Assembly: GCF_020171465.1 (NCBI RefSeq)
Contig: NZ_JAIUZR010000004.1
Location: 62,001-126,000 of the forward strand
Origin: Lutimonas saemankumensis
Lineage (GTDB): Bacteria; Bacteroidota; Bacteroidia; Flavobacteriales; Flavobacteriaceae
Length of the DNA: 64,000 nucleotides
Direction of reading: 5' to 3'
The notes under the pieces were generated by a model. It did no database searches and was not told the DNA's origin. It was given only the letters and a program-made list of their open reading frames with translations. The translations under genes were made by a program, and so were the position numbers. Shown in pieces: positions 8,033 to 33,843 of the stretch (position 1 is the first letter of the stretch; each line of letters opens with the position of its first letter).

Positions 8033-8068
8033 ATGATGAATATCAACATTTTATTTGATTGTAATCAT
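8033..8068 (+). promoter_or_regulatory. 36-bp tandem Fnr-like operator, copy 1
   Basis: ATGAT-GAAT-ATCAA and TTGAT-TGTA-ATCAT are two palindromes separated by 8 bp, with centres 22 bp apart. It lies 54 bp before the ATG of the InlB/LRR lipoprotein gene. Each half resembles the TTGAT-N4-ATCAA box of Fnr-type regulators. Confidence 0.6.
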
Positions 8069-8121
8069 TTATATTAATTGGATGCTAGTTTAATTTTATG
8101 ATTCTCTAAAATATATGGATC

Positions 8122-9588
8122 ATGAAAAAAAGAATCAACTTTAGAATCCTTAGCTACACACTTCTTTTAACACTGCTGGTACTTTGTACTGAAGATGACC
8201 CAATTGAATTTCGCCTAACAACTAACTGTGTACCCGAAAAAACAGGAACCGTTTCACCTGAATCCGGAATGTTTACAGAAGGATCTGAGATTGAACTCAA
8301 AGCAACTGCAAACCCTGAGTACATTTTTAAACATTGGGAAGGAGATGCGGTTGGTGATGAAAACCCTTTGAAAATAACCATGACCAAGAACAAGGCAATA
8401 ACTGCTGTTTTTGAAAAAGTTAATTATTCATTGACCATTGAAGTGATTGGTCAGGGAACAGTTAATCAGGAAATCGTACTCGCCAAATCCTCCTCCACTG
8501 ATTATGAATCAGGAACAATCGTCAAGCTCATAGCGGTACCCGAAGATGAATGGGAGTTTGTTGGCTGGAGCGGTGATCTTAGCGGTACGGAAAATCCTAT
8601 ACAGATAGAAATGGATAAGGCCATGACTATAACAGCAAAATTCGAAAAGGTTTCATATGCATTAGAAATAGAAATCGAAGGAAATGGAACAGTGAAGGAA
8701 GAAATAGTTCAAGCTAAATCTTCCTCAACAGATTACGATCCAGGAACAACCGTTCAACTTACCGCAATACCGGATGCCGGCTGGATATTTGTTGGTTGGA
8801 GCGGCGACCTTACTACAACAGAAAATCCGATTCAACTAAAAATGGATCAGGCCATGACCATAAAAGCAAAATTTGAAATAACTGTTGAAATTCCGATAAG
8901 CATTTGGGTATTCGGAAATGGAACCGTTGAAAAAGAATGGATTGAAAACCCTTCACCGGGTGATTCAGATGTGAGACTGACCGCTCATGCAAAAGAGGGT
9001 TCATACTTTGTATATTTATATGGTATCATGGATAATGAAATGGGAGATTTTCTTATTACTGAAAACCCAATTGAATTCAATCTAAGTGAGGCTTTATGGG
9101 CACAATATACAGATCACCTTTTTCTCTATGCAATCTTTCAGGAAGGACTCACAAACAAAACCTACATTCCAGATAATGATTTTGAACAAGCCCTTATTGA
9201 TCTGGGATACGATGATCAATTGGATAATTACGTACTGACTCAGGTAATCAGCAGAATTGAAGAATTGGATGTATCAAACCGAAACATCCAAAGTCTCAAT
9301 GGAATTGAAGATTTTATAAGTTTACAAAGACTGCGTTGCAATCAAAATAATATAACGAATATAAACCTATCTAAAAATCCTCATATATCCTTATTGGATG
9401 TCAAAGACAATGAATTAGATGATCTTGACCTTACGTCATTGGGAAACATTCTTTTACTGGACATTAGGAATAATCCTCTCTCTTGTGTTAAAGTAAATGA
9501 AACACAATTAGAACAAGTAGAAAACCCCGGATTGGCCATATGGCTTAGAGATGAAGGAGTAGAATTTTCCATGGATTGTGACGAATAA
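8122..9588 (+). CDS. Surface lipoprotein with InlB B-repeats and C-terminal leucine-rich repeats
   Basis: A 488-residue protein. The N-terminal signal ends in LLVLC followed by TEDD, an acidic start that in Bacteroidota favours export to the cell surface. Residues ~35-320 hold four divergent InlB B-repeat modules (such as FVGWSGDLSGTENP and AMTITAKFEK). From about residue 345 a cap (TYIPDNDFEQALIDLG) leads into a short leucine-rich repeat array with ELDVSNRNIQSL units and a closing CVKVNETQLEQ cap. Repeats two and three are closely similar, indicating internal duplication. It is a paralogue of the gene at 24376 and shares caps with three LRR-only lipoproteins downstream. A role in adhesion or binding is likely but inferred. 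Its operators are just upstream and a terminator follows. Confidence 0.85.
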   Translation: MKKRINFRILSYTLLLTLLVLCTEDDPIEFRLTTNCVPEKTGTVSPESGMFTEGSEIELKATANPEYIFKHWEGDAVGDENPLKITMTKNKAITAVFEKVNYSLTIEVIGQGTVNQEIVLAKSSSTDYESGTIVKLIAVPEDEWEFVGWSGDLSGTENPIQIEMDKAMTITAKFEKVSYALEIEIEGNGTVKEEIVQAKSSSTDYDPGTTVQLTAIPDAGWIFVGWSGDLTTTENPIQLKMDQAMTIKAKFEITVEIPISIWVFGNGTVEKEWIENPSPGDSDVRLTAHAKEGSYFVYLYGIMDNEMGDFLITENPIEFNLSEALWAQYTDHLFLYAIFQEGLTNKTYIPDNDFEQALIDLGYDDQLDNYVLTQVISRIEELDVSNRNIQSLNGIEDFISLQRLRCNQNNITNINLSKNPHISLLDVKDNELDDLDLTSLGNILLLDIRNNPLSCVKVNETQLEQVENPGLAIWLRDEGVEFSMDCDE

Positions 9589-9613
9589 ACTTTCCTTTTC
9601 TCGATAAGTAAAT

Positions 9614-9646
9614 AAACCCGGATATGCTTTTTATATTCGGGTTTTT
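9614..9646 (+). terminator. Intrinsic terminator of the InlB/LRR gene
   Basis: AAACCCGGATAT / ATATTCGGGTTT pairs with a single internal mismatch and is followed by T's. Confidence 0.75.
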
Positions 9647-9704
9647 CTACCACCACTCCCAAAAATTGACAGCTATCTTTTCTTACTATGGCACCGGGTC
9701 TAAA

Positions 9705-9740
9705 TTGACCACGATCAATACCCCACTTGATTTATATCAT
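9705..9740 (+). promoter_or_regulatory. 36-bp tandem Fnr-like operator, copy 2
   Basis: TTGAC-CACG-ATCAA, 8 bp, TTGAT-TTAT-ATCAT; centre distance 22 bp. The flanking sequence is nearly identical to the control region of the LRR gene at 19974, but the gene that followed is destroyed; the plug-domain lipoprotein gene at 9880 is now next downstream. Confidence 0.6.
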
Positions 9741-9774
9741 TGGATATTAGCTTTTTGTGATGTTCCTTTATGTC

Positions 9775-10366: not shown

Positions 10367-10730
10367 CTAATATGATTTAGACTTTTTAGAAGTGGGTTCT
10401 TCAGAAGTTTGTTCACTTTGATTCTCTATTAGTTCGAGGAGCATTATTTCTGATTGTATATACCACCTGGGATTGAGTACTTCAAACTTACCTTTGTTCT
10501 TATCCTTGTAGTATTTGTTGAGCCTTCTTTGATACTTAATTGATTTATTCTTTTTGGCACTTTTAAGAAATGCTTTATCTTCTCTTTCCGAGAACCATTA
10601 AAATTGCTTCGATCTTTTTTTGTTTAATTCGCTGTTTTGACCAAATCCCAAGAAAGTAACGAAAAGAAAAATAGAGTATATGGAACAGATCTTCCTCATC
10701 CTTAAATAGGTTTTCCTCTAAAATTAGAAT
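10367..10730 (-). pseudogene. Frameshifted, unrecognised minus-strand gene
   Basis: Two overlapping minus-strand open frames look coding in character but lack a start codon and are out of register. The upstream part reads LEENLFKDEEDLFHILYF and on to KKIEAILMVLGKR. After a shift near 10580-10595 the second part reads EDKAFLKSAKKNKSIKYQRR, then NPRWYIQSEIMLLELIENQ. Together they would give roughly 115 residues. Lysine-rich, predicted helical, no family recognised. It is most simply a decayed gene. No other feature explains this ~360-bp stretch. Confidence 0.4.
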
Positions 10731-10748: not shown

Positions 10749-10784
10749 TTGATTTTGATCAATACCGCTCTTGATTCTTATCAG
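10749..10784 (+). promoter_or_regulatory. 36-bp tandem Fnr-like operator, copy 3 (orphan)
   Basis: TTGAT-TTTG-ATCAA (perfect Fnr-type box), 8 bp, TTGAT-TCTT-ATCAG; centre distance 22 bp. No intact lipoprotein gene follows; a mini-gene repeat remnant and a truncated DUF6090 gene lie downstream. Confidence 0.55.
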
Positions 10785-11271: not shown

Positions 11272-11307
11272 TTGATGAGAATCAATTTATCCATTGTCCC
11301 AAATCAT
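11272..11307 (+). promoter_or_regulatory. 36-bp tandem Fnr-like operator, copy 4
   Basis: TTGAT-GAGA-ATCAA (perfect), 8 bp, TTGTC-CCAA-ATCAT; centre distance 22 bp. It ends 57 bp upstream of the lipoprotein gene at 11364. Confidence 0.5.
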
Positions 11308-11363
11308 CGTAACAAGATTAAAATGGTGTTAACTTGATTTTCCAACCCATTAAACAATTTGAC

Positions 11364-11795
11364 ATGAAAACAATCAAAAAAAGCATCGAGTGGGCCGCTA
11401 AAATTCTTTCCTTTCTTATTCTGCTTCAAAGTTGTACCGTATATCATAATTATTCCAGCTCTGTTGATGAGGCGATAGCAACTAATGATAAAGTCAAGCT
11501 GGACATTAATAATGACGATCCTTATAAATTCAAAAAGATCAAGATTTTTGGGACTGAATGTTATGGTTTAACAAAGATTAAATCAGACACCTATCGGAGA
11601 CTTTCAGATAGAAAAAAAATGGATGCTGGAATAAAGAATTTCACTTACGTCCAAATATCTCAGGAAGAACTCAGTAATATTCATTTAAAAAACAAAGGCG
11701 CTTCTAATGCACTTTCAATAGCAATTCCAGTATTAGGTATTGGTGCTGCGATTGCTATTGGAACCTGGGCAACTGTTAAAGATGGTGTACTTTAG
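11364..11795 (+). CDS. Lipoprotein of unknown function
   Basis: A 143-residue protein. The signal peptide FLILLQSC predicts a lipid-anchored cysteine at residue 24. The mature part contains DPYKFKKIKIFGTECYGLTK and a C-terminal hydrophobic segment (SIAIPVLGIGAAIAIGTWA, about residues 117-135). The start MKTIKKS was preferred to an upstream in-frame TTG because it gives a normal signal peptide. Similar uncharacterised proteins with a YKFKxI core are, as I recall, common in Flavobacteriia. It is preceded by a copy of the 36-bp operator and followed by a terminator. Confidence 0.7.
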   Translation: MKTIKKSIEWAAKILSFLILLQSCTVYHNYSSSVDEAIATNDKVKLDINNDDPYKFKKIKIFGTECYGLTKIKSDTYRRLSDRKKMDAGIKNFTYVQISQEELSNIHLKNKGASNALSIAIPVLGIGAAIAIGTWATVKDGVL

Positions 11796-12129: not shown

Positions 12130-12684
12130 TTAATAGGTGATTTCTCCCCATCCGTTTTTGAAAATTTCGAATTCGCCTTCCGGTAATCCGGAACCCTCAT
12201 CTATAGGTTGAAAAATGCCGTAAAATTCTAACGATCCTGTGGCTCCTAAAAATCTTCCGGTTCCTCCTGTGATGTCATAGTTAAAGGTTGCCGGTTCACC
12301 TGGGCAATATCCAGGGATTGGGATTTCATCATTTTCACATTCGACAAAAGGATCGGCTGTAGTATAATGAATCTCATCTCCATTTGCGGCGATCATTACG
12401 CCTTTAAAACCTGTCAAACCTAAAGGAGTAAAACAAGCTGTATTCACGAAAGTATAGGCTCCGATATGACTGGCTTGGCCATATCCTGTTTGCAAAAATA
12501 GTAAATCACAACCTAATGTGTCCGGAACATATTCGATCAATCCTTGGTAAGAATTGAAGGTGATGTTTTTGGTGACTTTTTTGGCCTTGGCGCTTTTTGC
12601 CGCCTCGTCAATTGGCAGGTCTTCGGATTGGCAGGAAACGAAAAGGAAGAATGCTCCGGCCACTAAAAAAAATATTTTTTTCAT
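12130..12684 (-). CDS. Lipoprotein with a GGTGRFxGATG barrel-like domain
   Basis: A 184-residue protein with signal FFLFVSC followed by QSEDLP, an acidic export-type start. The mature region is beta-rich. It contains YDITGGTGRFLGATGSLEFYG (residues ~146-166), a motif seen in many secreted bacterial proteins whose fold resembles the allene oxide cyclase or dirigent barrel, and four cysteines (CECENDEI/PGYCPG area). No catalytic residues can be assigned. The 36-bp operator lies upstream in the gene's own orientation, and a strong terminator follows, so it is a single-gene unit opposed to its neighbours. Confidence 0.7.
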   Translation of the reverse strand: MKKIFFLVAGAFFLFVSCQSEDLPIDEAAKSAKAKKVTKNITFNSYQGLIEYVPDTLGCDLLFLQTGYGQASHIGAYTFVNTACFTPLGLTGFKGVMIAANGDEIHYTTADPFVECENDEIPIPGYCPGEPATFNYDITGGTGRFLGATGSLEFYGIFQPIDEGSGLPEGEFEIFKNGWGEITY

Positions 12685-12749
12685 AATGTTTAATTTTAGA
12701 TTGTTTTGAAATTAAACTTCCAAATTACACAGAATCAGAAGGAGTAAAA

Positions 12750-12785
12750 ATGACCATAATCAATTAATTCATTGATTGTTATCAA
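12750..12785 (-). promoter_or_regulatory. 36-bp tandem Fnr-like operator, copy 5 (leftward)
   Basis: In gene orientation: TTGAT-AACA-ATCAA, 8 bp, TTGAT-TATG-GTCAT; centre distance 22 bp. It lies 65 bp upstream of the leftward lipoprotein gene. Because it sits on the opposite strand from the others and still follows its gene, it is strong evidence that the element is functionally linked to these lipoproteins. Confidence 0.6.
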
Positions 12786-13770: not shown

Positions 13771-14874
13771 ATGATCAACTTCTTTAGGCGAATAAGGCAC
13801 AAACTAATTCAAGAAAGCCAATTTTTTAAGTATCTGAAATATGCCATTGGTGAAATAATACTCGTCGTGATTGGTATTTTAATCGCCTTTCAGGTCGATA
13901 CCTGGAACGAGGATAGAAAGTCTCAAGAAAGAGTGAGACTCCTGTTCTCACAGGTTCAGAAGGAGTTGCTCTACAATATTTCCCGAACTAATTATGCCAT
14001 TGATTCCTATGTTAATTTAGATTCGGTCTTTTACAACGTAATTAAGGGAAAAGCTACGTACAGGGACTACGAGTCTGACAGCCGTTATAGCCGACTTATA
14101 ACACATATCAATGTTGATGTGGAAGCTCAGGAGAGTGCATTCAAGCAATTAATAGAAAGCAACGAGTCCTTTAACTCAAAACAGGACGATCTATTGAACC
14201 AATTAAGAAACCTATATGGACTTGACTTGTCAAAAGTGAAGATCCAGAATAATAATCTTGCCCAAATGGCAAACGATTTCCGTCAAAAGTTAAAAGATGA
14301 AAAGTCGTGGTACTCGGATTTAGGAGATCCATCTTCGGCCAGTCATATTGACCATGTTTTTTCAGAAGAAATAATTTATTACTTTCTGAATGATCCTTTT
14401 TACCTGAACGAAGTGCGGGATTTTATTAACGTCGGGTATCGAAATCATTTAAGGAGCATCCTGGGTTTTAGAACAAGAGCAGTTGATATTTATAAAGAGA
14501 TAGCCTTTTACTTGAATGAAACTCCAGACCCAATAATAGTAAACAATATTGACAATTATTCTCATTTCATGGGGAACTATACAAATGAAAAAATCACCTT
14601 AGCATCCGATGAAGATCGTGTGAACGCCGTGATAAAAAGTAAAAATGATTCACTAAGGCTCAATATTTATTGGAATGAGTTTTTAATTGATTCGATGGAA
14701 ATACGTCCATATTCAACGGATTCATATATAGCTTTTTATGAAGCCCAGGGAGAAACTGAAGGCGTCCTGAACAAATTTATCCGCAATGAAAAGACCGATA
14801 AGGTTGAACTAATTTTAATAGGTGATTTTGGTCCAAACAAAGAGAAACGGCCCAGATTTATAAAACTTAACTAA
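13771..14874 (+). CDS. DUF6090-family membrane protein, long form
   Basis: A 367-residue protein. Residues 1-20 form a basic amphipathic stretch (MINFFRRIRHKL) and residues ~24-42 a single transmembrane helix (YAIGEIILVVIGILIAFQV), the DUF6090 signature. This predicts a short cytoplasmic N-terminus and a large periplasmic domain. The following ~200 residues are helical; the last ~110 (from HFMGNYTNE) are beta-rich. It is the first of six DUF6090 genes in a row and, unlike several others, has no antisense repeat immediately upstream. Function unknown. Confidence 0.85.
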   Translation: MINFFRRIRHKLIQESQFFKYLKYAIGEIILVVIGILIAFQVDTWNEDRKSQERVRLLFSQVQKELLYNISRTNYAIDSYVNLDSVFYNVIKGKATYRDYESDSRYSRLITHINVDVEAQESAFKQLIESNESFNSKQDDLLNQLRNLYGLDLSKVKIQNNNLAQMANDFRQKLKDEKSWYSDLGDPSSASHIDHVFSEEIIYYFLNDPFYLNEVRDFINVGYRNHLRSILGFRTRAVDIYKEIAFYLNETPDPIIVNNIDNYSHFMGNYTNEKITLASDEDRVNAVIKSKNDSLRLNIYWNEFLIDSMEIRPYSTDSYIAFYEAQGETEGVLNKFIRNEKTDKVELILIGDFGPNKEKRPRFIKLN

Positions 14875-14937
14875 GGTAGATTCTTCCTTCATCGATCCCA
14901 AATTCAAATCCTAATTAAAACAAAACGATCACTTCAA

Positions 14938-15987
14938 ATGCTTCACTTCTTCCGTAAAATCCGACGAGACCTTTTAGCCAATAGCCAATTTTTTAAGTAT
15001 TTGAAATATGCCATTGGTGAGATTGTGTTGGTTGTCCTGGGGATATTGATTGCACTGCAGATCAATAATAGGAATGAGGAGCGTAAAGAACAGGATAAAT
15101 TCAACCAGATCTTGGTGGATGTGGAGAAGGAGATAGTTGACAACATTTCCTTTGCAAGAGAAACGATCCATGGTTTTGCGCAGTATGACTCATTGTGTCT
15201 GAATTTTTTCATTGACTCGGTTAGGTTTGCCGATAATATTTACTTGTATAGAAGACTTTTCGGGGGCTCTGTCAAATCATTAATTCGAGATGATGCTTTT
15301 CAAAAACTTAATCAGTTGATTCGCTTATCCACCGAGCAAGAAGCTATGAGGGATAAGCTGATTGATTTTAAACTTGGTAACGGCGAAATTGAAATTGATG
15401 ATCACAGCAGGAAAATGACCGAATTAAAAGAGGCCCGTTTAGAAATTTTCAAGAAACACGAATGGTGTGAAAATTGGCAATTTTATAAATATGATGACAG
15501 ATTTGCAGATTTTTTTACCATGAATGATGAAGGCAGGAATCTTGTTTTAGAGAATTTTACATGGGTAACAGAGTACAGAGAAAGTTTACAGCATTACGAC
15601 AGTCACGCAATTCCAGTTTTTAAAAGTATTAGCAGATACTTAGATAGCCTTGGACTAGAACATAATGATTCCTCGTTATTTGAATATGATCCCAAAAATT
15701 ACAAACATTACCTTGGGAAATATAATGCAGTATGGTGTTCTCATAAAGATTTTGTTTTTGATGATTCTGTTATTGTTTCCACTGAAAAAGGCAAGTTGTT
15801 TTGGACAGCCTATCGGCAGGATGGAAACGGTAGAAAAATGGAGATCTCGCCAATAAACAAATATCATTTTAGGACTCCCTTTTTTGCGGGAATCTATCAT
15901 TTAGAAATTAACGAACACGGAGAGGTTTCAGGCATAACATTCAGTGCCGGTCCTGAATGGGTTTATTCACTTGAAAAAGTAAGATGA
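14938..15987 (+). CDS. DUF6090-family membrane protein, long form
   Basis: A 349-residue protein with the family N-terminus MLHFFRKIRRDL and one transmembrane helix (~24-42). The central helical part carries paired patterns such as FQKLNQLIRLST. The C-terminal ~100 residues (HYLGKYNAVWCS, then FAGIYHLEINEHGEVSGI) form a beta-rich domain. That domain is shared with the gene at 18769 and loosely resembles the lipocalin-like C-terminal domain of serine-hydrolase proteins. It lies 63 bp after the preceding paralogue. Confidence 0.85.
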   Translation: MLHFFRKIRRDLLANSQFFKYLKYAIGEIVLVVLGILIALQINNRNEERKEQDKFNQILVDVEKEIVDNISFARETIHGFAQYDSLCLNFFIDSVRFADNIYLYRRLFGGSVKSLIRDDAFQKLNQLIRLSTEQEAMRDKLIDFKLGNGEIEIDDHSRKMTELKEARLEIFKKHEWCENWQFYKYDDRFADFFTMNDEGRNLVLENFTWVTEYRESLQHYDSHAIPVFKSISRYLDSLGLEHNDSSLFEYDPKNYKHYLGKYNAVWCSHKDFVFDDSVIVSTEKGKLFWTAYRQDGNGRKMEISPINKYHFRTPFFAGIYHLEINEHGEVSGITFSAGPEWVYSLEKVR

Positions 15988-15996
15988 TCATTCTCC

Positions 15997-16206
15997 TCAA
16001 ACCCTAAATGGATATTCGGTCAACCACTCAATCAACTCATCTAACTCCATATTGTGAATAAAAAAATAACGCAATTTCCCAACCACTGGAAATGAAAATC
16101 GTTTAGACATCTCGATAAGTAATCGAACCCTTTCGGAAGCGAAATGATACCATTCGTCCTTGATGAGTATAATGAATGAATCCCGGATACTATATTTAGT
16201 TATCAA
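15997..16206 (-). CDS. Possible antisense mini-gene (only open copy of a repeat)
   Basis: A minus-strand frame of about 69 codons without stops: ITKYSIRDSFIILIKDEW, then HFASERVRLLIEMSKRFSF, VVGKLRY, NMELDELIEWL. At least nine other copies or fragments of the same frame occur in this window, mostly with stops. The best start is a TTG; there is no ATG, and the open frame continues upstream into the complement of the next DUF6090 gene (YFTEEWEHLLS) before a stop. Conservative replacements between copies suggest past coding. It could instead be a non-coding repeat that happens to be open. No family recognised. Confidence 0.3.
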   Translation of the reverse strand: MITKYSIRDSFIILIKDEWYHFASERVRLLIEMSKRFSFPVVGKLRYFFIHNMELDELIEWLTEYPFRV

Positions 16207-16215
16207 ACTCAGCAG

Positions 16216-17013
16216 ATGCTCCCATTCTTCCGTAAAATACGCTTCCGGTTAGCGCAAGATAATCAGTTCTTGAAATATTCCCGATATGCCATTGGGGAGA
16301 TAGTTTTAGTTGTGATAGGTATACTAATAGCATTACAGGTCAATGACTGGAATAAAGAAAGGATCAACAGGATAGAAGAAAATACATATCTCCAGAGGTT
16401 GGTTCAAAATTTAAACAGAGATCTTTACAATGTTAAAGCCTCGACCAGCGTTCATGAGGAGACACTTATCAGATGTACGCAAGTTTTGGATTCCCTGGGA
16501 AAGGCGAACATCGGGCGCATAAAAGATGGCGAAGCATATTCAAATGCGTTAAAAAAACATAAAGCCAATCAATTCAATAATCCCAATACATTGGGCGAGC
16601 AATTTTTCAATATTCTGGTAATAAGTCTTTTTTACAAATCTGATATTGCTTTTCAAGAATTACTTTCAACAGGTAAAATAGACATCATTAAAAATCAGGA
16701 TCTCAAATCCGCCATCCAAGAACATTACTTATTGGTTACCGAATATCAGAATTTTCAAGACCGTATTGTAATGGAGATACAAAACAATTATCGAGAAGCT
16801 CTTATTAAGAATAACATCAGCTCGATTAACAATGAATCCTATTCCCTTTTAAAAGATAGAATCACAGATTCTGCCGGTTTGATCGTGGCAATAGAGAACT
16901 ACATGAATATTTCTGCAGCAACTCTCAACTTGTTCATCTATAATGAAAATTCACTCCAAAAAAGCACCGAAAGATTAATTCATCAAATTTCAAATGAATT
17001 GAATAAACCCTGA
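16216..17013 (+). CDS. DUF6090-family membrane protein, short form
   Basis: A 265-residue protein with N-terminus MLPFFRKIRFRLAQDNQFLK, transmembrane helix ~24-42, then an all-helical periplasmic part (LLSTGKIDIIKNQDLKSAI is typical of the short class). It lacks the beta-rich C-terminal domain of the long forms. The start codon sits 10 bp from the end of the antisense mini-gene frame, and the next paralogue begins 5 bp after its stop, suggesting co-transcription. Confidence 0.85.
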   Translation: MLPFFRKIRFRLAQDNQFLKYSRYAIGEIVLVVIGILIALQVNDWNKERINRIEENTYLQRLVQNLNRDLYNVKASTSVHEETLIRCTQVLDSLGKANIGRIKDGEAYSNALKKHKANQFNNPNTLGEQFFNILVISLFYKSDIAFQELLSTGKIDIIKNQDLKSAIQEHYLLVTEYQNFQDRIVMEIQNNYREALIKNNISSINNESYSLLKDRITDSAGLIVAIENYMNISAATLNLFIYNENSLQKSTERLIHQISNELNKP

Positions 17014-17018
17014 ATATT

Positions 17019-17813: not shown

Positions 17814-17861
17814 ATCAAAAGCTCATTGAGGTCGTCTTCGGGAGCCGGATACAAAACTTTT

Positions 17862-18050: not shown

Positions 18051-18059
18051 ACTTAGCAG

Positions 18060-22472: not shown

Positions 22473-22478
22473 AGCACA

Positions 22479-24186: not shown

Positions 24187-24204
24187 ATACCCTCGGGAGG
24201 GTAT
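24187..24204 (+). promoter_or_regulatory. 18-bp palindrome ATACCCT-N4-AGGGTAT, copy 2
   Basis: Same arms as at 8012 with spacer CGGG, in a TATATA context. It lies upstream of the second InlB/LRR lipoprotein gene and of its 36-bp operator, the same order as at the first paralogue. Confidence 0.55.
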
Positions 24205-24229
24205 ATATATCTGTATATCAGATATTTCG

Positions 24230-24265
24230 TTGATTAAAATCAAGTTGTAAATTGATTAGTATCAT
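24230..24265 (+). promoter_or_regulatory. 36-bp tandem Fnr-like operator, copy 9
   Basis: TTGAT-TAAA-ATCAA (perfect), 8 bp, TTGAT-TAGT-ATCAT; centre distance 22 bp, about 118-140 bp before the ATG. Confidence 0.6.
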
Positions 24266-24375
24266 TGTTGAATTTATAATTCCCTACTAATTTTATCTCT
24301 TATAATAGGATACTGCGTGATAAATGCCAAATGGCATAGATTTTTAAAATTAATATAACTCAAAAATCTAACGAT

Positions 24376-25494
24376 ATGAAGAATCCTATTAATCTTAAAC
24401 TTACAGTATCTGTGATGTTTTTGGCCCTTTTGACTTTTTGTGCAGATGACGACCCAATCCAGTATCAGCTTGAAACATCGTGTATCCCTAAAGAAACAGG
24501 AACGGTAACCCCTTTACCCGGCATGTATAATGAAGGAAGCGAAATTGAACTCAAGGCAACCCCTATAGATGAGTATATTTTTAAAAACTGGACCGGCGAT
24601 GCCAGTGGTAATGCAAACCCTTTGAAAGTTATCATGCTTGAAGATAAAAATATTACGGCTGTTTTTGAAAAAGTACAATACAACCTGGACATCATTATCA
24701 ATGGAGGGGGTACTGTTAAGCAGGAAGTCCTTCAATCCAAAACAACGACTTTCCCATCCGGAACACATTTGAAGCTAATTGCTACTCCTTTTCCCGGATG
24801 GCAATTCGTATTTTGGGAAGGTGATGTTGAGGGCGTGGAGAATCCCATGGAAATTACAATGACAAAGTCCATGACCATTACCGCTTATTTCGAGCCAACT
24901 AAACAGACCTATGTTCCAGACGACAACTTTGAAAAGGCACTTGTAGACCTCGGACTGGACAGACTGATGGACGACTATGTGTTTGATCTTTACGTGGCTT
25001 ACATCGAAGAATTGGACCTAACCGGTTTAGGCATCAAAGACCTTACAGGCATCGAGGCCTTTACCAATCTGAAAGAATTAAATTGCTCGAATAATGAATT
25101 GAGCACATTAGATCTTACTAAAAATATCCGCCTCGAAAGCTTGAACTGCTCAAACAATGAATTGAGCACATTAGATCTTACTAAAAACATTAAACTGTCC
25201 AGCTTAGATCTGTCAAACAATTCACTTGAAGACATAGACTTGACCAATAACAAGAATCTTTATGTTTTAATTTTATCTAACAATGAGCTCAAAAGGCTCG
25301 ATATTTCGCACTTGACAGAATGGATAAATTTATGGGCTGATAATAACAAATTAAAATGTATCCAGGCCCATGAGGATCAATGGACCAACGCCCTAAATGA
25401 TTGTACGCCTCCGCCTTATCTACCACCTTCACCCTATGACACCTGCATGGTTGTAGACGAAGGAGTTACCTTCTCTTTGGACTGCGACAACTAA
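24376..25494 (+). CDS. Surface lipoprotein with InlB B-repeats and leucine-rich repeats
   Basis: A 372-residue paralogue of the protein at 8122. The signal ends in ALLTFC followed by ADDDP, an acidic surface-type start. Two InlB B-repeat modules (FKNWTGDASGNANPLK; FVFWEGDVEGVENPME) are followed by the LRR cap TYVPDDNFEKALVDLG. About five LRR units follow, two of them near-identical copies with LNCSNNELSTLDLTKNI. The C-terminus has a proline-rich insert (PPPYLPPSPYD) before the final FSLDC. It has two fewer B-repeats than the 8122 protein. Confidence 0.85.
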   Translation: MKNPINLKLTVSVMFLALLTFCADDDPIQYQLETSCIPKETGTVTPLPGMYNEGSEIELKATPIDEYIFKNWTGDASGNANPLKVIMLEDKNITAVFEKVQYNLDIIINGGGTVKQEVLQSKTTTFPSGTHLKLIATPFPGWQFVFWEGDVEGVENPMEITMTKSMTITAYFEPTKQTYVPDDNFEKALVDLGLDRLMDDYVFDLYVAYIEELDLTGLGIKDLTGIEAFTNLKELNCSNNELSTLDLTKNIRLESLNCSNNELSTLDLTKNIKLSSLDLSNNSLEDIDLTNNKNLYVLILSNNELKRLDISHLTEWINLWADNNKLKCIQAHEDQWTNALNDCTPPPYLPPSPYDTCMVVDEGVTFSLDCDN

Positions 25495-25513
25495 ACTTCC
25501 CCTCATGAAAATG

Positions 25514-25545
25514 AAAACCCGGTGGTGAGATGCTATCGGGTTTTC
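25514..25545 (+). terminator. Probable terminator of the second InlB/LRR gene
   Basis: AAAACCCG / CGGGTTTT arms of 8 bp enclose a 15-nt loop and end in T's. Confidence 0.65.
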
Positions 25546-25559
25546 TTGATGAGGATCAA
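25546..25559 (+). promoter_or_regulatory. Single Fnr-like box (no partner)
   Basis: TTGAT-GAGG-ATCAA matches the first palindrome of the 36-bp element, but the position 22 bp downstream holds no second box. It may be a relic or a chance match within the terminator flank. Confidence 0.3.
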
Positions 25560-25631
25560 TTATTCGGGTTTCCTTTTCCAATACCCCAGCCTTCTATTTT
25601 CTAGTTACGGCTCCGGATCTGATGCCCATTT

Positions 25632-25730
25632 AAACATCTCGATAAATAATCTATCCCATTCGGAAGTGATTTGATACCGTTCGTCCATGATGAGTATTGT
25701 GAATGATTAACCGATGCTATATTTAATTAT
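25632..25730 (-). repeat. Antisense mini-gene repeat, N-terminal half, decayed
   Basis: The minus strand reads IIKYSIG-stop-SFTILIMDER, then ITSEWDRLFIEMF. It ends 13 bp before the next DUF6090 start. Confidence 0.5.
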
Positions 25731-25742
25731 AAAACTTAGCAG

Positions 25743-26537
25743 ATGCTCCCCTTTTTCCGTAAAATTAGATGGCGCCTTGCCGCAAATAACCAATTCTTTA
25801 AGTATAGCAGATATGCCATTGGCGAGATAGTGCTTGTTGTGATTGGGATTCTCATAGCTCTCCAGATTAACAACTGGAATGAGAATCGGAAGTCAAAATT
25901 GATTCTAAAATCTCATTTGGAGACCTTGAAATCAGATCTAGAGAGTGACATCAAGAATCTGGAACTCTTAATGAATAACGCATCTTTTAGGTATCATTCA
26001 ATGCACGTCATCTTGAAAAGAGCTGGTTTCAAGGAGAACAATGTTGCATTCTATAATATTCCAAAGTTTAAAGGCGATTTTTTTGGATATAAATCAATCC
26101 CTGATGAAATTGATTCGACGTTCTTGCAATTTGCATTTACCGCTGTTGGGTACATTTCGCATTTTGATGCTACCATGAATGGACTGGATCAATTAAAAAA
26201 TTCTGGCTTGTTATCTTTTATCGACGATAAAAATATAATTGAAGAAATAGACGATTACTACATAAGGCATGAGCGATTTCTGGGTAAAAAGGAATGGCAA
26301 AGTCTGATTTACTATAAACAGTATTGGATCACCCTGTTAACCGAGAATGGATTTAGTCCTGATGCCGGTTTGGTCATCAATGATGTCATGAAATGGTTGC
26401 AAAAGGATCCCGAAGCTGTTGCAGCATTACGCAATCTAGTAACCAATGCGGAATTCATTTACGCCAACTCCATTTTGCAAATAGAGATCGGAAACAACCT
26501 AATAGAGAATATTGGCAAAACTATAGAGAATTTATGA
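25743..26537 (+). CDS. DUF6090-family membrane protein, short form
   Basis: A 264-residue protein with MLPFFRKIRWRLAANNQFFK and the transmembrane helix at ~24-42. The helical periplasmic part differs strongly from its paralogues (KSHLETLKSDLESDIKNLEL, then QLKNSGLLSFIDDKNIIEEI). The latter keeps the LxSSGxLxxI-like motif of the short class. Its stop codon overlaps the start of the next DUF6090 gene. Confidence 0.85.
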   Translation: MLPFFRKIRWRLAANNQFFKYSRYAIGEIVLVVIGILIALQINNWNENRKSKLILKSHLETLKSDLESDIKNLELLMNNASFRYHSMHVILKRAGFKENNVAFYNIPKFKGDFFGYKSIPDEIDSTFLQFAFTAVGYISHFDATMNGLDQLKNSGLLSFIDDKNIIEEIDDYYIRHERFLGKKEWQSLIYYKQYWITLLTENGFSPDAGLVINDVMKWLQKDPEAVAALRNLVTNAEFIYANSILQIEIGNNLIENIGKTIENL

Positions 26538-27613
26538 TGATCCCATTTTTTCGTAAAATACGCTGGCGATTAGCCCAAGACAATCAGTTCTTTAAATACA
26601 GCAGATATGCCATTGGAGAGATTGTGCTTGTTGTTGTTGGGATTTTGATTGCGCTTCAGATAAATAATTGGAATGAGCAACATAAGTCAGATGCGAAAAT
26701 TGATGTGCTTTTTGAAAAGGTATTAATTGAACTGGTTGCCAATATCAATGAAACACAAAAAGTATTTCAAAATTCTAAATACCTGGACACTCTTGGTTAT
26801 TTGGTAATATATAACAACTTAGCTTACGATGATTATGCCATGCCTAAATATGACAAAAATGGCGCTCGGGTATTAACCTATTTATATTTCCCATACGATT
26901 ATGAATATGATATGGTTTTCTTAAACACAAGTGCTTATGACAATTTAGTTTTAAATATGGATTTAATACCTTCTAAATATGACCAAGTAGTTAGTGAATT
27001 AAATATTATGTATTCCATGGATAAGAAAGCCATTGATATTGCTAATAAGAATATGATTGATTTTGTGAAGGATATTAAGGCTGAGCACCGTAAAAAATAC
27101 AATTGGTATTCCGATCATGTATTTAGTCCTAATCAAAATAGGGAAATGATTGATTACATGCTGAATAATTATCTTTATAAAAATGAGGTGCAAGGCTGGT
27201 GGAATTTAAGTCGTGCCCAATTAAATAATACCCTAAGTTATCGAAATCGTGCCGTACGGATTTACCAAGAATTGGCGATGTTATTAAATATGCCAACAGT
27301 TCATGACAGCTTTAAAGTTGATCCTGAAGTTGTGAATCTGCTAGTTGGAACTTATAAATTAATATCTGAAGATGGAGTGTATGATCCGGAAGAATATAAA
27401 TTTGAAAACAACCTCATAATGACTTACAAACCTCTACAACCTGACATTGCGTGGGAGAATACGTTTATAGATTTAAAAAAAACAAAATCTAGATCCGTCA
27501 TTTCGATGTTGCGAAACAGTGGCGCAGTTTATATGACATATATTGTTGAGGGGGACTCGCTATCCGTTATAAATAATGGTGGTAGTACCTGGAAGTTTAT
27601 AAAAGTTAATTAG
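26537..27613 (+). CDS. DUF6090-family membrane protein, long form
   Basis: A 358-residue protein starting MIPFFRKIRWRLAQDNQFFK, with the usual transmembrane helix. The ATG at 26537 overlaps the last base of the preceding gene; an ATG one codon earlier is equally possible (ATGATG). A longer reading into the upstream gene is rejected because the family N-terminus starts here. The middle is helical; the last ~80 residues (LLVGTYKLISEDG onward) are beta-rich and end in STWKFIKVN. The closest architecture in the window is the protein at 13771. Confidence 0.85.
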   Translation: MIPFFRKIRWRLAQDNQFFKYSRYAIGEIVLVVVGILIALQINNWNEQHKSDAKIDVLFEKVLIELVANINETQKVFQNSKYLDTLGYLVIYNNLAYDDYAMPKYDKNGARVLTYLYFPYDYEYDMVFLNTSAYDNLVLNMDLIPSKYDQVVSELNIMYSMDKKAIDIANKNMIDFVKDIKAEHRKKYNWYSDHVFSPNQNREMIDYMLNNYLYKNEVQGWWNLSRAQLNNTLSYRNRAVRIYQELAMLLNMPTVHDSFKVDPEVVNLLVGTYKLISEDGVYDPEEYKFENNLIMTYKPLQPDIAWENTFIDLKKTKSRSVISMLRNSGAVYMTYIVEGDSLSVINNGGSTWKFIKVN

Positions 27614-27800
27614 TCCCAATTTTTACATATTAACTCCGCTAGTCCTTCACTTCTGGCATCTTACTCCAGGCATTCCCAAGTAATTCACTCATGGCCTAGT
27701 ATACATTCAATAGCAACGAATTGTTCAATACTAATATTGAGCATTTTACTAAAAACCCTTCGAGATGCATCCAAATTAATCTCGTATGTTCACTCAAGAT

Positions 27801-28838
27801 TTATTTAATCGCTATTATTGCGCTTGAAGGCCCTTCAAGTGGCATCAATATTGTTTCTTTAAACCCTGCCATCTCAGACCACGATTTAAATTCGGATAAT
27901 GAAAAATCAAATCCTTCATCCGTTTCGATAGCCATATTCAAAGACATCATCAATCCGAAAGTATTTTTTTCCCTTTGATCATCAATAATATTTTCAATAA
28001 CAATAAGTGCACCTCCTTCAGGTAAAGCTTGATAGGCCTTTCTAACTAACATAACTTTGTCCTGAGCACCCCAATCGTGAAGAATATTTCCCATCGTTAT
28101 AATATCTGCATTTGGGAAGTCATCAATAAAAAAATCTCCCGAAACAATATCTATTCGTTCAGTTAAACCAAATTGACTTACGTTTTCCTTTGCTATAGGG
28201 CCTACAGGAGGTAAATCAAATGAAATACAATTCATGTGATTATTGTTTTTTGCTACGATAATGGAAAGGTTGGCACCTGAACCACCCACATCACATAGTG
28301 TACTGTAATTTGAGAAATCAAAATCTCGAGCCAGTTTCATAAAATTACCGGCTTGTACACCTCCCATACCATGAATAAATTCCCTAAGTCTGTCCTCATC
28401 AGAATAAATGGCTTCAAAAAGAGGTTTTCCACCATTTTTTGACTCGTTTTGAGGGCCTCCGGTTTTTAAGCATTCCTCTAAATCATTCCAAAATGGATAG
28501 AGTCTGTTATTAGACATTTCCAGAATACCACCAATATAACTCGGTTTGTTTTTGTCTAAAAACATTTCGGAATCATCTGAATTTCCATACATGGCGTTTT
28601 CCTTCAATCCTGTGCGATTCAAAAATCCTAAAGCCACAAGTGTATCTAAAAAATCATAAAGTGATCGATCATGCAGTCCCAGCTTGTTTTGAATTTCTGA
28701 GCCCGAAAGCATTCCGGCAGACAATTCTGTGAAAAGTCCCATGTTTACGGCTGTCAATAAAGTTTTTGATGCCCAAAAACCCATCCCAACCTGCATTATC
28801 TTTGACGGGGTAACTTGATTTTGAATTGATTGTTCCAT
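27801..28838 (-). CDS. SAM-dependent O-methyltransferase (acetylserotonin OMT-like)
   Basis: A 345-residue protein with the two-part architecture of plant- and fungal-type O-methyltransferases. The N-terminal winged-helix dimerization domain has FWASKTLLTAVNMGLFTEL and LYDFLDTLVALGFL. The C-terminal Rossmann domain has the SAM motif CDVGGSGANLS (~185-195), ISFDLPPV, and the catalytic-type ILHDWGAQDK. Small hydroxylated aromatic compounds or pigments are typical substrates; none can be named here. It is transcribed alone, leftward, in the middle of the DUF6090 array, which suggests an inserted gene. Confidence 0.88.
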   Translation of the reverse strand: MEQSIQNQVTPSKIMQVGMGFWASKTLLTAVNMGLFTELSAGMLSGSEIQNKLGLHDRSLYDFLDTLVALGFLNRTGLKENAMYGNSDDSEMFLDKNKPSYIGGILEMSNNRLYPFWNDLEECLKTGGPQNESKNGGKPLFEAIYSDEDRLREFIHGMGGVQAGNFMKLARDFDFSNYSTLCDVGGSGANLSIIVAKNNNHMNCISFDLPPVGPIAKENVSQFGLTERIDIVSGDFFIDDFPNADIITMGNILHDWGAQDKVMLVRKAYQALPEGGALIVIENIIDDQREKNTFGLMMSLNMAIETDEGFDFSLSEFKSWSEMAGFKETILMPLEGPSSAIIAIK

Positions 28839-29233
28839 ATTTCTTGTGTTTTAAATTCCTAAAAGCATATTAAATTATTTTAATCTTCGACCGGATACGA
28901 GATTGATCGATTTTATAATCTTGTGTAAATTTTGAATATACGTTCCTCAATGTAGCTAATCTATCCTTATGGTTAAAACCAATCAGGACGAAGTACACTT
29001 ATAAATGTCCGAAGTATAGAATAATTTTTCCGACGACTACTGTAAGACATTTTAGGGTTTTATCATTCCCTTAGTCAATGACCATAACGCAATTCCCCAA
29101 CCACCGATGATGATAATGTTATTCACATCCCGATAAATAATCGAACCCTTTCGGAAGTGAAATGATGCCATTCGTCCATATCCATTATTTCATCTGAACC
29201 ACTGATGCTATATTTAGTTATAAAACTTAGCAG
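28839..29233. repeat. Gap with promoter region and an antisense mini-gene copy
   Basis: The left half is the upstream region of the methyltransferase gene, with no clear consensus promoter. The right half (29089-29221) is a mini-gene repeat: the minus strand reads ITKYSISGSDEIMDMDEWHH, then FTSERVRLFIGM-stop, ending in VVGELR. It lies 12 bp from the next DUF6090 start. Confidence 0.55.
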
Positions 29234-29968
29234 ATGCTCAAATTCTTCCGAAAAATACGATGGCGTCTTGCCGCAAATAATCAATTCTTCAAATACAGCA
29301 GATATGCCATTGGAGAGATTGTGCTTGTTGTAATTGGGATTCTGATTGCGCTTCAGATTAACAACTGGAATGAAGAAAGGAAGGATATTATCAATAAAAA
29401 ATTATTTAAGAGGGCTCTTATCGAAGATTTGCAAAAAGATACCGCTAATCAAAATCACGTTATCCAAGTGGCAGAAATTCATATAAAAGTTTTTGGGGAA
29501 ATAATAACTAAACTTGAAAAACCAGATGTTACGTTTGATACAATAGTTAAATTATATACATCGGGAAGCATGAGTAAAATGGGAATATTACCTCCAAATA
29601 AAACGACGTTTCAGTCTCTCATGTCTACAGGTAATATTAAGGTATTTACTGAAGATGAAATTCAAGAATTAATGAACTTTTATGACAATATAAAACTGAG
29701 GTACCATTTAATTCAATATCGTTATGATTATTCATATGAAAAATACCAGGAATTAAATGACAAGTTTGGTTTTCTTTGGAAAAATGAAAAAAATGGCCCC
29801 GTTTATAAGATTTTGAGGAAAGAGGTAAACGAAGCAGAATTTATTAGAATGTATGATTTAGCTCTTCATAGGTTTTTACAGGCATCACGATCTGCTCAAG
29901 AGCATTCAGAACAATTATTAATTCTGACCAATGAATTAATTGAAACCTTAAGTCTCGATCCAGATTGA
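29234..29968 (+). CDS. DUF6090-family membrane protein, short form
   Basis: A 244-residue protein with MLKFFRKIRWRLAANNQFFK, transmembrane helix ~24-42, and a helical periplasmic part with FQSLMSTGNIKVFTEDEIQE. It is the last family member in the window and stands alone between leftward methyltransferase and ATP-grasp genes. The truncated copy at 10909 shares its NEERKDIINKK segment, so the two are recent relatives. Confidence 0.85.
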   Translation: MLKFFRKIRWRLAANNQFFKYSRYAIGEIVLVVIGILIALQINNWNEERKDIINKKLFKRALIEDLQKDTANQNHVIQVAEIHIKVFGEIITKLEKPDVTFDTIVKLYTSGSMSKMGILPPNKTTFQSLMSTGNIKVFTEDEIQELMNFYDNIKLRYHLIQYRYDYSYEKYQELNDKFGFLWKNEKNGPVYKILRKEVNEAEFIRMYDLALHRFLQASRSAQEHSEQLLILTNELIETLSLDPD

Positions 29969-30002
29969 AATTATCGAATGATCCCCTGAAAATTATCATT
30001 GT

Positions 30003-31785: not shown

Positions 31786-31850
31786 AAAACCCCACCGAAG
31801 CGAGGCATGACATGATTTGCCCGTTAATTGCGTTATTAAGCAATGTACTA

Positions 31851-32879
31851 TTAATCATTTTTGCCCGAGTTGTAGTTTCTGACCTCGATCATGAACGCTT
31901 TTGATGGATTGACGCTGATCAATAAGTTAAATTCATCGTCTGTAAAGCCCTGTGATTTTAGCTCCGGATAGAGTTTCTTAAAAATATTTGTGTAGGGTTT
32001 TATCGTTTGATTTTCTTTTTGAGGATCATACCATCCTGAATCGTGTGAAATTAAAACTCGATCTAAAATTCCATTTTCTTTTGCAAATAATAGTTTTTCA
32101 ACATGTTTTTCCAATTCCCAACCCATTCCATCCAGGCTTATCCAGCATCCCATCTCTGCAGCTTTAAGATAACTATCATGATCATCTTCTGACTGGGCAT
32201 GCACCCAGATAAAAGCCTCTGGTGATACCCCCATTTTTTTTAAAATGTTCAATTGCGGCCACAAACCTATAGCTCTTCCCGTATGTGATGCTATAGTTAA
32301 ACCTGTTTTCAAATGAGTCAGAGCCGCGGCTTTTACCAACTTTTGATGCGTTACATGTAAGGGATCAGAATCATCAACACCAATCTTAATAAATCCCGGT
32401 CTTATTGAAGTTCCATCAATACCATTCTTATATTCATTAACCCACATCCCGGCTAGATCTTCTCCTGTCATCTCATGAGCATATGCAGGAATAAATTTGT
32501 TATCACGAGCTCCATAAAGACCTGTATTTGTAACAATTCTAATACTTGTTTTATTAGCAATTTTCTCCAGAAGCAATACATCTCTTCCCAAATAACCCGG
32601 TGTTGCGTCAACAAAATAATTCACATTAAACTCTTGAAGCTCTTCCAGATAAGGCGTTACTTCCTTAATTATGACATCATGGTTCCATGTGTTCGGTTGG
32701 ATACTGTCTGCACCAATAAAATCAACTAAAATATGTTCGTGTGATAACCATATTTGATTTGGTGCTAATTGATGCGTTGCGTTAACATCTTGAATTAGCT
32801 GTTGTTTTTTAGATGTTGGATATCCGCAACCAATTAGTAAGAAAAAAATTAAAATATAAATTCTTAGTCCTTTATTCAT
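31851..32879 (-). CDS. Phosphotriesterase-family metal-dependent hydrolase (lipoprotein)
   Basis: A 342-residue protein with signal FFLLIGC (lipobox). Metal ligands of the PTE/amidohydrolase fold are visible: the HEH motif near residue 48 (WLSHEHILVDF), IASHTGRAI, FIWVHAQSEDDHDSY and VLISHDSGWYDP. The bridging lysine seems to be in RPGFIKIGVDDSDP. Family members hydrolyse phosphotriesters or, more often, lactones. A periplasmic or outer-membrane location is predicted by the lipobox. Its neighbours give no clue to the substrate. Confidence 0.85.
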   Translation of the reverse strand: MNKGLRIYILIFFLLIGCGYPTSKKQQLIQDVNATHQLAPNQIWLSHEHILVDFIGADSIQPNTWNHDVIIKEVTPYLEELQEFNVNYFVDATPGYLGRDVLLLEKIANKTSIRIVTNTGLYGARDNKFIPAYAHEMTGEDLAGMWVNEYKNGIDGTSIRPGFIKIGVDDSDPLHVTHQKLVKAAALTHLKTGLTIASHTGRAIGLWPQLNILKKMGVSPEAFIWVHAQSEDDHDSYLKAAEMGCWISLDGMGWELEKHVEKLLFAKENGILDRVLISHDSGWYDPQKENQTIKPYTNIFKKLYPELKSQGFTDDEFNLLISVNPSKAFMIEVRNYNSGKND

Positions 32880-33278
32880 GAATTTATGCTGTGATTTTTT
32901 ATTAATTCACCTTTATTAATAATTCTTCAATTTAGTCAAATTTCGTCTATTATTGATGAAGTACAATCGCTTAATCTGAACCCATACAAGTATTTTACCT
33001 CCCTGGAAACCGGAAACTTATCAAAAGGTGATAAACTGGATATTACAAGAAACAAGGAACAATTCTAGCTGCTCCTTAAACGAATCCGAAAATGAAAACT
33101 GATTTCAAAAGACAAGGGTGTTAATCCGATGCCTGATATATATCTTTTTACCTTTTTTATTCCAAGAGGAAGATTCCGTCACTTTGAGGATCTTGATTCT
33201 GTCACCAGCATTCATTTGGGTCTATCTTACACATAAACCAGGCTAACATTCTTGAGATTTAAGTTTGCTTTTCTTCGT

Positions 33279-33296
33279 ATACCCTCTATAGGGTAT
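33279..33296 (+). promoter_or_regulatory. 18-bp palindrome ATACCCT-N4-AGGGTAT, copy 3
   Basis: Same arms as at 8012 and 24187, spacer CTAT. No 36-bp operator follows and no intact lipoprotein gene is next; only short frames lie downstream. Confidence 0.5.
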
Positions 33297-33452
33297 TTTG
33301 CTGAAATTGTGCTATTTATAGTCATTAATTTAATCCAAAATACATAATTTTGTAAACTAAATTGCTATGGCAGGCAAGAGTATTTTTCACTGGTTTCAAT
33401 ATCACAACATTTTTGAAATTATAAAATGCTGTGAACCAATTTACTTATAGTT

Positions 33453-33548
33453 ATGATGGAATTATTATTATTAATTTGTGGTTTAGTAATCGGAATAATG
33501 ATTGGTTTTATTTTGATGATTGTATTAGCTGTCAGAGATATTGAATAA
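33453..33548 (+). CDS. Possible 31-residue single-helix membrane peptide
   Basis: The frame MMELLLLICGLVIGIMIGF, then VLAVRDIE, is almost entirely one transmembrane helix. The ribosome-binding site is weak. It could be a genuine small membrane protein or a chance hydrophobic frame in AT-rich DNA. Confidence 0.3.
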   Translation: MMELLLLICGLVIGIMIGFILMIVLAVRDIE

Positions 33549-33807
33549 TGACCCAAAATTATGGAAGGGAAAGAAATATTCTCGATCCTATGCGTCTTCA
33601 CATATCAGTCAAAAAGAGTACATTTTTATACAATGACGATAAAAGGTTATCAATTAGAATAGCCTCCATGTGTGATGAATATCATTCTGGTAAATTGACA
33701 TTTATAGCCTCTTTTTTATTCACCCACTCCTAAACCGGAGTCTCCTACTTAATTCTTCGGCACTTACCAGGAAATCTATTTTCTTCTGTTGAGGTTCAGA
33801 GAGCATA

Positions 33808-33843
33808 TTGACCATAATCAATCCAAACTGTGCTTGATATCAT
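33808..33843 (+). promoter_or_regulatory. 36-bp tandem Fnr-like operator, copy 10 (second box half)
   Basis: TTGAC-CATA-ATCAA, 8 bp, then GTGCT-TGAT-ATCAT, where only the right half-site of the second palindrome is kept. It lies 57 bp before the lipoprotein gene at 33901. Confidence 0.5.

Follow-up and report, generated by a model that had tools for sequence, protein, structure and literature searches.

Tandem operators in the window and across the genome

We analyzed a 64,000-nucleotide stretch of the Lutimonas saemankumensis genome (assembly GCF_020171465.1, contig NZ_JAIUZR010000004.1, positions 62,001 to 126,000; hereafter the window), in which a 36-bp element made of two consecutive palindromes recurs, mostly upstream of genes for lipoprotein-like proteins. 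Its ten sites had originally been predicted to share the pattern TTGAY-N4-ATCAA-N8-WTGAT-N4-RTCAT. Two palindromes with centers 22 bp apart were indeed present at all ten coordinates, but the exact pattern was found at only six of them (0 in 100 shuffles); the remaining four carry one or two mismatches (8033 starts with ATGAT, 10749 ends with CAG, 11272 has TTGTC and 33808 has GTGCT). Allowing up to three mismatches and counting both strands, the window contained 19 matches compared to 0.21 expected.

The element extends well beyond this region. The strict pattern matched nine times in the whole 3.58-Mb genome, and a symmetrised form, WTGAY-N4-RTCAW-N8-WTGAY-N4-RTCAW, was perfect at 19 places (7 within the window and 12 outside), with a further 6 places at one mismatch and 13 at two. 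A reversed control pattern gave no perfect place genome-wide. When the spacer was left free between 0 and 28 in a genome scan with TTGAY-N4-RTCAA as the first box, it was 8 in 11 of 11 matches. The arrangement is rigid, genome-wide and genuine, and the 12 perfect places beyond the window answer the genome scan that had been named as a check: the element also occurs outside duplicated blocks.

Position of the element relative to the promoter

The element lies at a fixed distance from a -7 box. TAnnTTTG was scored at offsets 0-59 from 29 oriented sites of the L. saemankumensis genome; offset 22 had a mean of 4.24 out of 6, compared to 2.93 for the next best, and 14 of the 29 sites scored 5 or 6 there. 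These 29 were taken from the 38 places with at most two mismatches and oriented by their downstream gene; the nine left out all have two mismatches (four are intragenic and two were never fetched), and some orientations were guessed, with 10749, C3:774475 and C3:811472 later reversed by the -7 box. TTG is favored at the final base of the element and the next two bases (T in 26, T in 24 and G in 18 of the 29), and the terminal T of the last half-site is explained by its being the first base of a -33 TTG. Since circularity was to be avoided, sites in relatives were chosen by the 36-bp pattern alone and left unoriented. On one of their sides, offset 22 scored 5 or 6 in 32 of 35 sites (all 17 of genomes G004 and G017 plus 18 from others, out of 94 sites outside L. 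saemankumensis), and the both-side mean at this offset was 3.5, compared to 1.94 averaged over all offsets and 2.31 for the next best.

In Flavobacterium psychrophilum, the sigma-A TAnnTTTG box spans -12 to -5 (available excerpt of PMC9723704). Combined with the offset of 22, this register places the center of the proximal palindrome at -41.5 and that of the distal palindrome at -63.5. Crp motif centers of -41.5 and -61.5 correspond to class II and class I promoters in Escherichia coli (available excerpt of PMC5957442), and the proximal box matches the class II activator position, given the F. psychrophilum register and predicted starts. We therefore read the element as the putative upstream, activator-binding half of a Bacteroidota promoter with a -33 TTG and a -7 TAnnTTTG. 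The direction originally ascribed to the element is borne out by its overlap with the -33 TTG and its fixed distance to the -7 box, and the geometry and genome-wide occurrence support an operator with a direction, in which two boxes of Crp/Fnr type share one helical face.

A search model (R1) was also built from 19 of the 29 sites, dropping ten that were copies, had two mismatches, were ambiguous or had no -7 box; being biased to sites with a -7 box, it was kept out of the -7 claim. In the genome search with R1, 150 of 4899 candidates were scored, and the site at C4:490000, upstream of a universal stress protein (Usp) gene, was absent from the output. Its single match in G028, with four mismatches in the presumed locus L144, was left uncounted.

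Window sites and their target genes

An intact lipoprotein-like open reading frame (ORF) follows nine of the ten window sites rather than the seven first proposed, with lipoprotein status judged by eye on the sequence: two encode InlB-repeat proteins, three leucine-rich repeat (LRR) proteins, one a plug-domain protein and three proteins without a Pfam family. Operator 1 (8033-8068, plus strand; distal box 8033-8046, proximal box 8055-8068; -7 box TAATTTTA at 8091-8098, 5/6) precedes a 488-aa lipoprotein-like protein (8122-9588, plus) with an atypical lipobox, three divergent InlB B-repeat stretches (PF18998) and an end that by eye resembles LRRs. Operator 2 (9705-9740, plus; TTG at -33; weak -7 box TTCCTTTA at 9763-9770, 4/6) is followed by a 153-aa lipoprotein-like protein with a TonB-receptor plug domain (PF07715; 9880-10341, plus). 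The leftward operator 3 (10749-10784, minus; -7 box TAATTTTA at 10719-10726 on the minus strand, 5/6) leads into the frame of a short secreted protein (10598-10699, minus) that stops after 33 codons, with a longer frame going on in another register; read by eye, it is probably a broken gene. Operator 4 (11272-11307, plus; -7 box TAACTTGA at 11330-11337, 4/6) precedes a 143-aa lipoprotein-like protein without a Pfam family (11364-11795, plus), and operator 5, on the minus strand (12750-12785; -7 box TAATTTGG at 12720-12727, minus, 5/6), a 184-aa lipoprotein-like protein without a Pfam or NCBIfam family (12130-12684, minus).

Three LRR lipoprotein-like proteins with PF12799 matches come next on the plus strand, each behind an operator with TTG at -33 and the weak -7 box TTCCTTTA (4/6): operator 6 (19904-19939, its 36-mer identical to that of 9705; -7 box at 19962-19969) upstream of a 274-aa protein (19974-20798), operator 7 (20890-20925; -7 box at 20948-20955) upstream of a 474-aa protein (20960-22384) and operator 8 (22479-22514; -7 box at 22537-22544) upstream of a 496-aa protein (22549-24039). 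The ORF listed from 20912 begins within operator 7, and 20960 is likely its true start. At 19974, 20960 and 22549, the predicted transcription start is the ATG itself; these mRNAs are possibly leaderless, or the start differs, or the -7 box is misplaced. Operator 9 (24230-24265, plus; TTG at -33; -7 box TAATTTTA at 24288-24295, 5/6) precedes a 372-aa lipoprotein-like protein with InlB-repeat and LRR matches (PF18998, PF12799) and an atypical lipobox (24376-25494, plus). The degenerate operator 10 (33808-33843, plus; two mismatches; TTG at -33; weak -7 box CAACTTAG at 33866-33873, 4/6), found in the model search at E = 0.005, precedes a 189-aa lipoprotein-like protein without a Pfam or NCBIfam family (33901-34470, plus), and by eye similar proteins lie behind sites C3:740488 and C3:789906 of the same genome. 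Overall, the -7 box scores 5/6 at four of the ten sites and the TTG is exact at six; all four sites in the duplicated blocks have TTCCTTTA (4/6), and the weaker-boxed sites are the promoters of least certainty.

Between the lipoprotein genes, from 13771 to 30000, runs an array of paralogues, some of them short, with a common N-terminus like FFRKIR..QFFKY.RYAIGEI; the one that was scored fell just under the Pfam DUF6090 cut-off. No tandem element was found directly upstream of these paralogues in a window scan at up to three mismatches.

Targets beyond the window

Outside the window, the element lies upstream of genes for four Usp proteins, Hsp20, dodecin, an FtsH-like protein (by eye), a C_GCAxxG_C_C redox protein, an AMP-binding enzyme, a secreted LRR protein with a sorting tail, a lipoprotein-looking esterase-family protein and more lipoprotein-like proteins; some of these sites carry one or two mismatches, and the Usp site at C3:724849 might instead serve the cytochrome c gene on its opposite flank. 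The surface-lipoprotein regulon originally proposed is not supported: lipoproteins prevail within the window, whereas elsewhere the element precedes Usp, Hsp20, FtsH-like, dodecin, redox and AMP-binding genes and a probable small RNA. A signal for lipoproteins only was rejected because the genome scan places the element before these other genes, and the lipoproteins would form one branch of a stress regulon.

A receiver-Crp fusion as the candidate regulator

Four proteins in the genome matched HTH_Crp_2 above the cut-off. One of them, a 344-aa protein encoded at C4:490065 (hereafter REC-Crp), has Response_reg, cNMP_binding (PF00027) and HTH_Crp_2 (PF13545) matches above the cut-off, and with its cNMP-binding-type and HTH_Crp domains it belongs to the Crp/Fnr superfamily. 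Its gene is preceded by a gene for a PAS histidine kinase, and the locus holds four elements, located before genes for a Usp, the probable small RNA, a 168-aa secreted protein and Hsp20. Lutimonas halocynthiae (L043) and a Flavobacteriaceae metagenome-assembled genome (L044) have the same locus, complete with elements and -7 boxes. Most congeners with long enough contigs also keep this layout; G017, G003 and G011 have a rearranged or shorter version.

The distribution of the element follows that of REC-Crp. Full-length REC-Crp was found in 15 of 22 genomes of the genus, all 15 of which contain the perfect 36-bp pattern, while of the 7 without a match the pattern was present in 2 (G007 and G020) and absent from 5 (Fisher p = 0.0008, uncorrected for kinship). 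Outside the genus, the perfect element was detected in 2 of 97 genomes with one match each; G099 encodes a REC-Crp that is 43% identical, and G109 has no full-length REC-Crp.

The top Crp-type NCBIfam match of REC-Crp is FixK, under the cut-off. FNR proper uses four cysteines to hold a [4Fe-4S] cluster; REC-Crp has two and is therefore not an FNR-type iron-sulfur sensor. CRP proper has cAMP-binding pocket residues, and the CRP-type Glu/Arg motif was not seen in REC-Crp when the sequence was judged by eye. The dimeric Crp/Fnr-like regulator of the original prediction is thus retained at the level of the superfamily, but the candidate is a response-regulator/Crp fusion and no plain Crp or Fnr. 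The element is most likely read by REC-Crp, which would be phosphorylated by the neighboring PAS kinase.

One box and two boxes

The number of boxes differs between lineages. In 14 of 14 genus loci scored, the gap behind the REC-Crp gene contained a pair of boxes followed by a -7 box at offset 22, and by sequence L111 (from the genus) and L112 (from G067, another genus) have tandem boxes too. Among 14 Flavobacteriaceae loci of other genera (L113-L126), 13 had a single proximal box, again at offset 22 from a -7 box, and lacked a good distal box, and L117 had neither box nor Usp gene; the loci examined here, L112-L126, account for 15 of the 28 full-length REC-Crp matches that were listed for genomes of other genera. 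In a tree of 28 REC-Crp proteins, a single branch with support 100/100 split 14 tandem from 14 single. The tree started from 30 loci, of which a filter removed L111 and L112; both group with the tandem clade in an earlier tree. The one-change result rests on a corrected labelling rule, under which L122, with three mismatches at the distal place, is single; the first rule had made it tandem.

The two clades also differ in the recognition helix, which reads IAKETL[TI]R in the tandem clade and [IMV]A[TSP]E[ST][LF]IR in the single-box clade, with Lys at one position in 14 of 14 tandem-clade proteins and Thr, Ser or Pro in 14 of 14 single-box proteins. As a guess, this difference may alter specificity. 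The second box of the tandem form appears to be an addition specific to one lineage.

Single boxes with TAnnTT at offset 22 are themselves frequent in the L. saemankumensis genome, with 50 places compared to 4 in the control. Of 30 such places inspected, 14 had a distal box at up to three mismatches and 16 had none, and another Crp protein probably shares the -7 geometry with single boxes. Some of the distal-less boxes (L170, L171, L175 and others) precede pyruvate or 2-oxoacid oxidoreductase-like and pyruvate phosphate dikinase-like genes.

A probable small RNA in the candidate regulator's locus

A probable structured RNA of ~230 nt lies outside the window in the REC-Crp locus (L026 8395-8627, equivalent to G000:C4:488395-488626, minus strand), bounded by the tandem-box promoter C4:488661 and a terminator-like hairpin. 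Behind this promoter, no ORF of at least 18 aa with an ATG start was found in L. saemankumensis or in L043, and L044 contains one 28-aa ORF whose start is inside the operator. The promoter-hairpin layout was observed in 13 genomes of the genus, with two copies in G009; in G011 the promoter runs straight into the next gene, and in G002 the contig stops beforehand.

Folding was more stable than expected, with z = -5.3 in L. saemankumensis and -5.1 in L043. Among ten aligned sequences, changes on both sides were found in 17 of 45 pairs (shuffled mean 8.7, with 0 of 500 shuffles as high), for a structure that was derived from the alignment on which it was scored and with shuffles that ignore kinship; RNAalifold's own tally of such double-changed pairs was 14. 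In total, 93.7% of cells were paired, compared to 43-54% when slid, and further pair types in the alignment were unexceptional (68 of 500 shuffles as high). No Rfam 15 match above the gathering score was obtained in the seven loci searched. A covariance model matched in 12 of 119 genomes, namely the nine source genomes, G005, G016 and G028; the weaker match in G028, from outside the genus (E 4e-5), is ~130 bp behind a second REC-Crp gene. The model had no match in G003 and G006, where the promoter-hairpin layout is the support for the RNA.

In the 5' part of the RNA, AAATTCTATGAA is predicted to be unpaired, and 6 of the 10 sequences in the alignment carry it unchanged; it is a possible target-pairing site. 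A possible second small RNA is suggested by L024 from 13473 onward (G000:C3:811472) and by L210 from 1501, both of which have a tandem-box promoter, a predicted transcript of ~60 nt, a terminator-like hairpin and no ORF, and share CTTCACTTCCCCTC.

The kinase and its signal

The PAS part of the kinase is similar to DosP and FixL, which are heme-based oxygen sensors. It gave 15 PDB matches at E ≤ 0.01, of which 12 are labelled DosP, heme PAS sensor or FixL; of the other three, one is labelled yddU, which we take to be the DosP gene, and two have other labels. Among 27 kinases, from 31 loci, the residue aligned to the DosP heme His is His in 25 and that aligned to the distal Arg is Arg in 23, assuming that these positions are the heme His and distal Arg of DosP-type PAS domains. 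In L045, a 40% identical REC-Crp adjoins genes that by eye are cbb3-oxidase-like; no tandem element was found in that locus at up to three mismatches. From these similarities we infer that oxygen may control the circuit.

Proposed mechanism and alternative explanations

Four things are read directly from the sequence: the geometry of the element, its conservation, its joint occurrence with REC-Crp and the genes that follow its sites. They lead us to propose a tandem class II-type promoter activated by REC-Crp under control of the PAS kinase and oxygen. Two Crp/Fnr-superfamily dimers would sit side by side on one helical face of the element. The proximal dimer, at -41.5, would overlap the -33 TTG and occupy the class II contact position for RNA polymerase, with the sigma-A -7 box TAnnTTTG 22 bp past the element, and the dimer at -63.5 would be an additional, second one. 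Low oxygen or another heme ligand would lead the PAS histidine kinase to phosphorylate the adjoining REC-Crp (C4:490 kb), which would switch on Usp, Hsp20, dodecin, the FtsH-like protein, the surface lipoproteins and the structured small RNA. Binding, phosphorylation, activation over repression and the oxygen signal are inferred from sequence; we regard the proposal as a whole as probable, and the class of mechanism as well supported at the sequence level.

Several observations weigh against this proposal. G007 and G020, which are 61% and 84% complete, have the element and no REC-Crp match; of the five genomes in which neither was found, four are 70-86% complete and one (G021) is 97% complete. 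The co-occurrence concerns one genus, ignores kinship and covers two of the four HTH_Crp proteins, with C4:554962 and C3:1356771 outside it. At six of the ten window sites the -7 box scores just 4/6, and four sites have no exact TTG; the perfect site C5:148382 shows no -7 box, and no gene is obvious downstream of it. The -7 box was scored at only 35 of the relatives' 94 sites, and orthologous sites among the 35 are not independent. The -12 register comes from another genus, and the distal center of -63.5 is 2 bp from the class I position. Finally, the same His and Arg occur in PAS domains never shown to bind heme.

Of the alternatives, a family of REP-like or mobile repeats that spread with duplicated genes and has no regulatory role appears highly improbable. 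Four window copies do have near-identical downstream flanks, and the element is palindromic and mostly intergenic; at the other sites the flanks and spacers differ, as the original prediction held and the flank comparison bore out, the element sits at the same genes in relatives though the free bases have diverged, and both the distance to the -7 box and the spacer length are invariant. Greater weight can be given to a different reader, such as the Fnr-like Crp (C3:1091967, 229 aa) or another Crp paralogue, in place of REC-Crp. C3:1091967 has Fnr as its top NCBIfam match, under the cut-off, and its HTH_Crp_2 score narrowly tops the genome (59.7 vs 58.8 bits); the single boxes at the same -7 offset before genes that by eye are oxidoreductase-like suggest that another Crp may use this geometry, and two paralogues stand outside the comparison, as noted. 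However, 19 of the 22 genus genomes encode the Fnr-like Crp, and all five that lack the element are among them (Fisher p = 1.0); it is missing from three element-bearing genomes (G003, G005 and G006, incomplete drafts) and occurs in 54 genomes outside the genus, where the perfect element is as rare as reported above. As the main regulator it was rejected because it fails to track the element, and we judge a reader other than REC-Crp to be quite unlikely. Nearly the same, if a shade less unlikely, can be said of repression, in which the two dimers would block the -33 region: the proximal box overlaps the -33 TTG, yet its center at -41.5 is the place of a class II activator (available excerpt of PMC5957442).

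A further alternative concerns the signal. REC-Crp may regulate these genes in response to NO, redox state, energy status or the like rather than oxygen, a possibility that we consider real but not the expected one. The PAS His and Arg are no proof of heme, and Usp, Hsp20 and FtsH-like targets fit general stress equally; against this stand the DosP, heme-sensor and FixL labels among the kinase's PDB matches and the cbb3-like genes beside the L045 REC-Crp, despite the lack of a tandem element in that locus.

Discussion

The promoter that we propose for REC-Crp has recognizable relatives. The FNR consensus is a TTGAT-N4-ATCAA-type box, and the boxes described here are of the same type as those of E. 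coli Crp/FNR promoters; as in class II and tandem-site promoters of E. coli, a dimer would sit at -41.5 over a -35-type element. Unlike in E. coli, where class I sites center at -61.5, the second center is fixed at -63.5 and the promoter is of the Bacteroidota -33 TTG / -7 TAnnTTTG kind. FixJ, in the alphaproteobacterial FixL-FixJ-FixK cascade, combines a receiver with a LuxR-type HTH and switches on fixK. The system in L. saemankumensis resembles this cascade in having a FixL-like PAS kinase, a receiver and a FixK-like Crp, with boxes similar to the FixK/FnrN consensus TTGANCNNGATCAANG (available excerpt of PMC4999443). It differs in that receiver and Crp output are fused, with no FixJ LuxR-type HTH and no separate fixK step, and in that the genes behind the sites encode stress proteins and lipoproteins.

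E. coli FnrS is an FNR-activated small RNA, and the probable RNA here likewise has its own Crp/Fnr-type promoter and a terminator, but it is ~230 nt with a long hairpin, is encoded in the regulator's locus and has no Rfam match. The hypoxia regulons of ANR and DosR include Usp and Hsp20 targets, as does the regulon proposed here, and differ from it in phylum, regulator architecture and operator. In a literature search with limited coverage of subscription journals, we recognized no description of this operator, of a Flavobacteriaceae receiver-Crp regulon or of this RNA.

Taken as a whole, the chances seem to us even that Flavobacteriaceae have a condensed, FixL-FixJ-FixK-like oxygen circuit with one receiver-Crp activator, and that in one genus this circuit gained a rigid second box at its targets, brought arrays of LRR and InlB-repeat lipoproteins under its control and also drives a ~230-nt, Rfam-unmatched RNA from the regulator's own locus. 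If true, what was a bare motif would now be a regulon open to testing, for which the regulator, the kinase, the promoter geometry and a small RNA can be named. It would also be an example of an operator whose box number differs between lineages, with one box in some and two in another; the difference has been mapped on a protein tree and goes together with one in the recognition helix.

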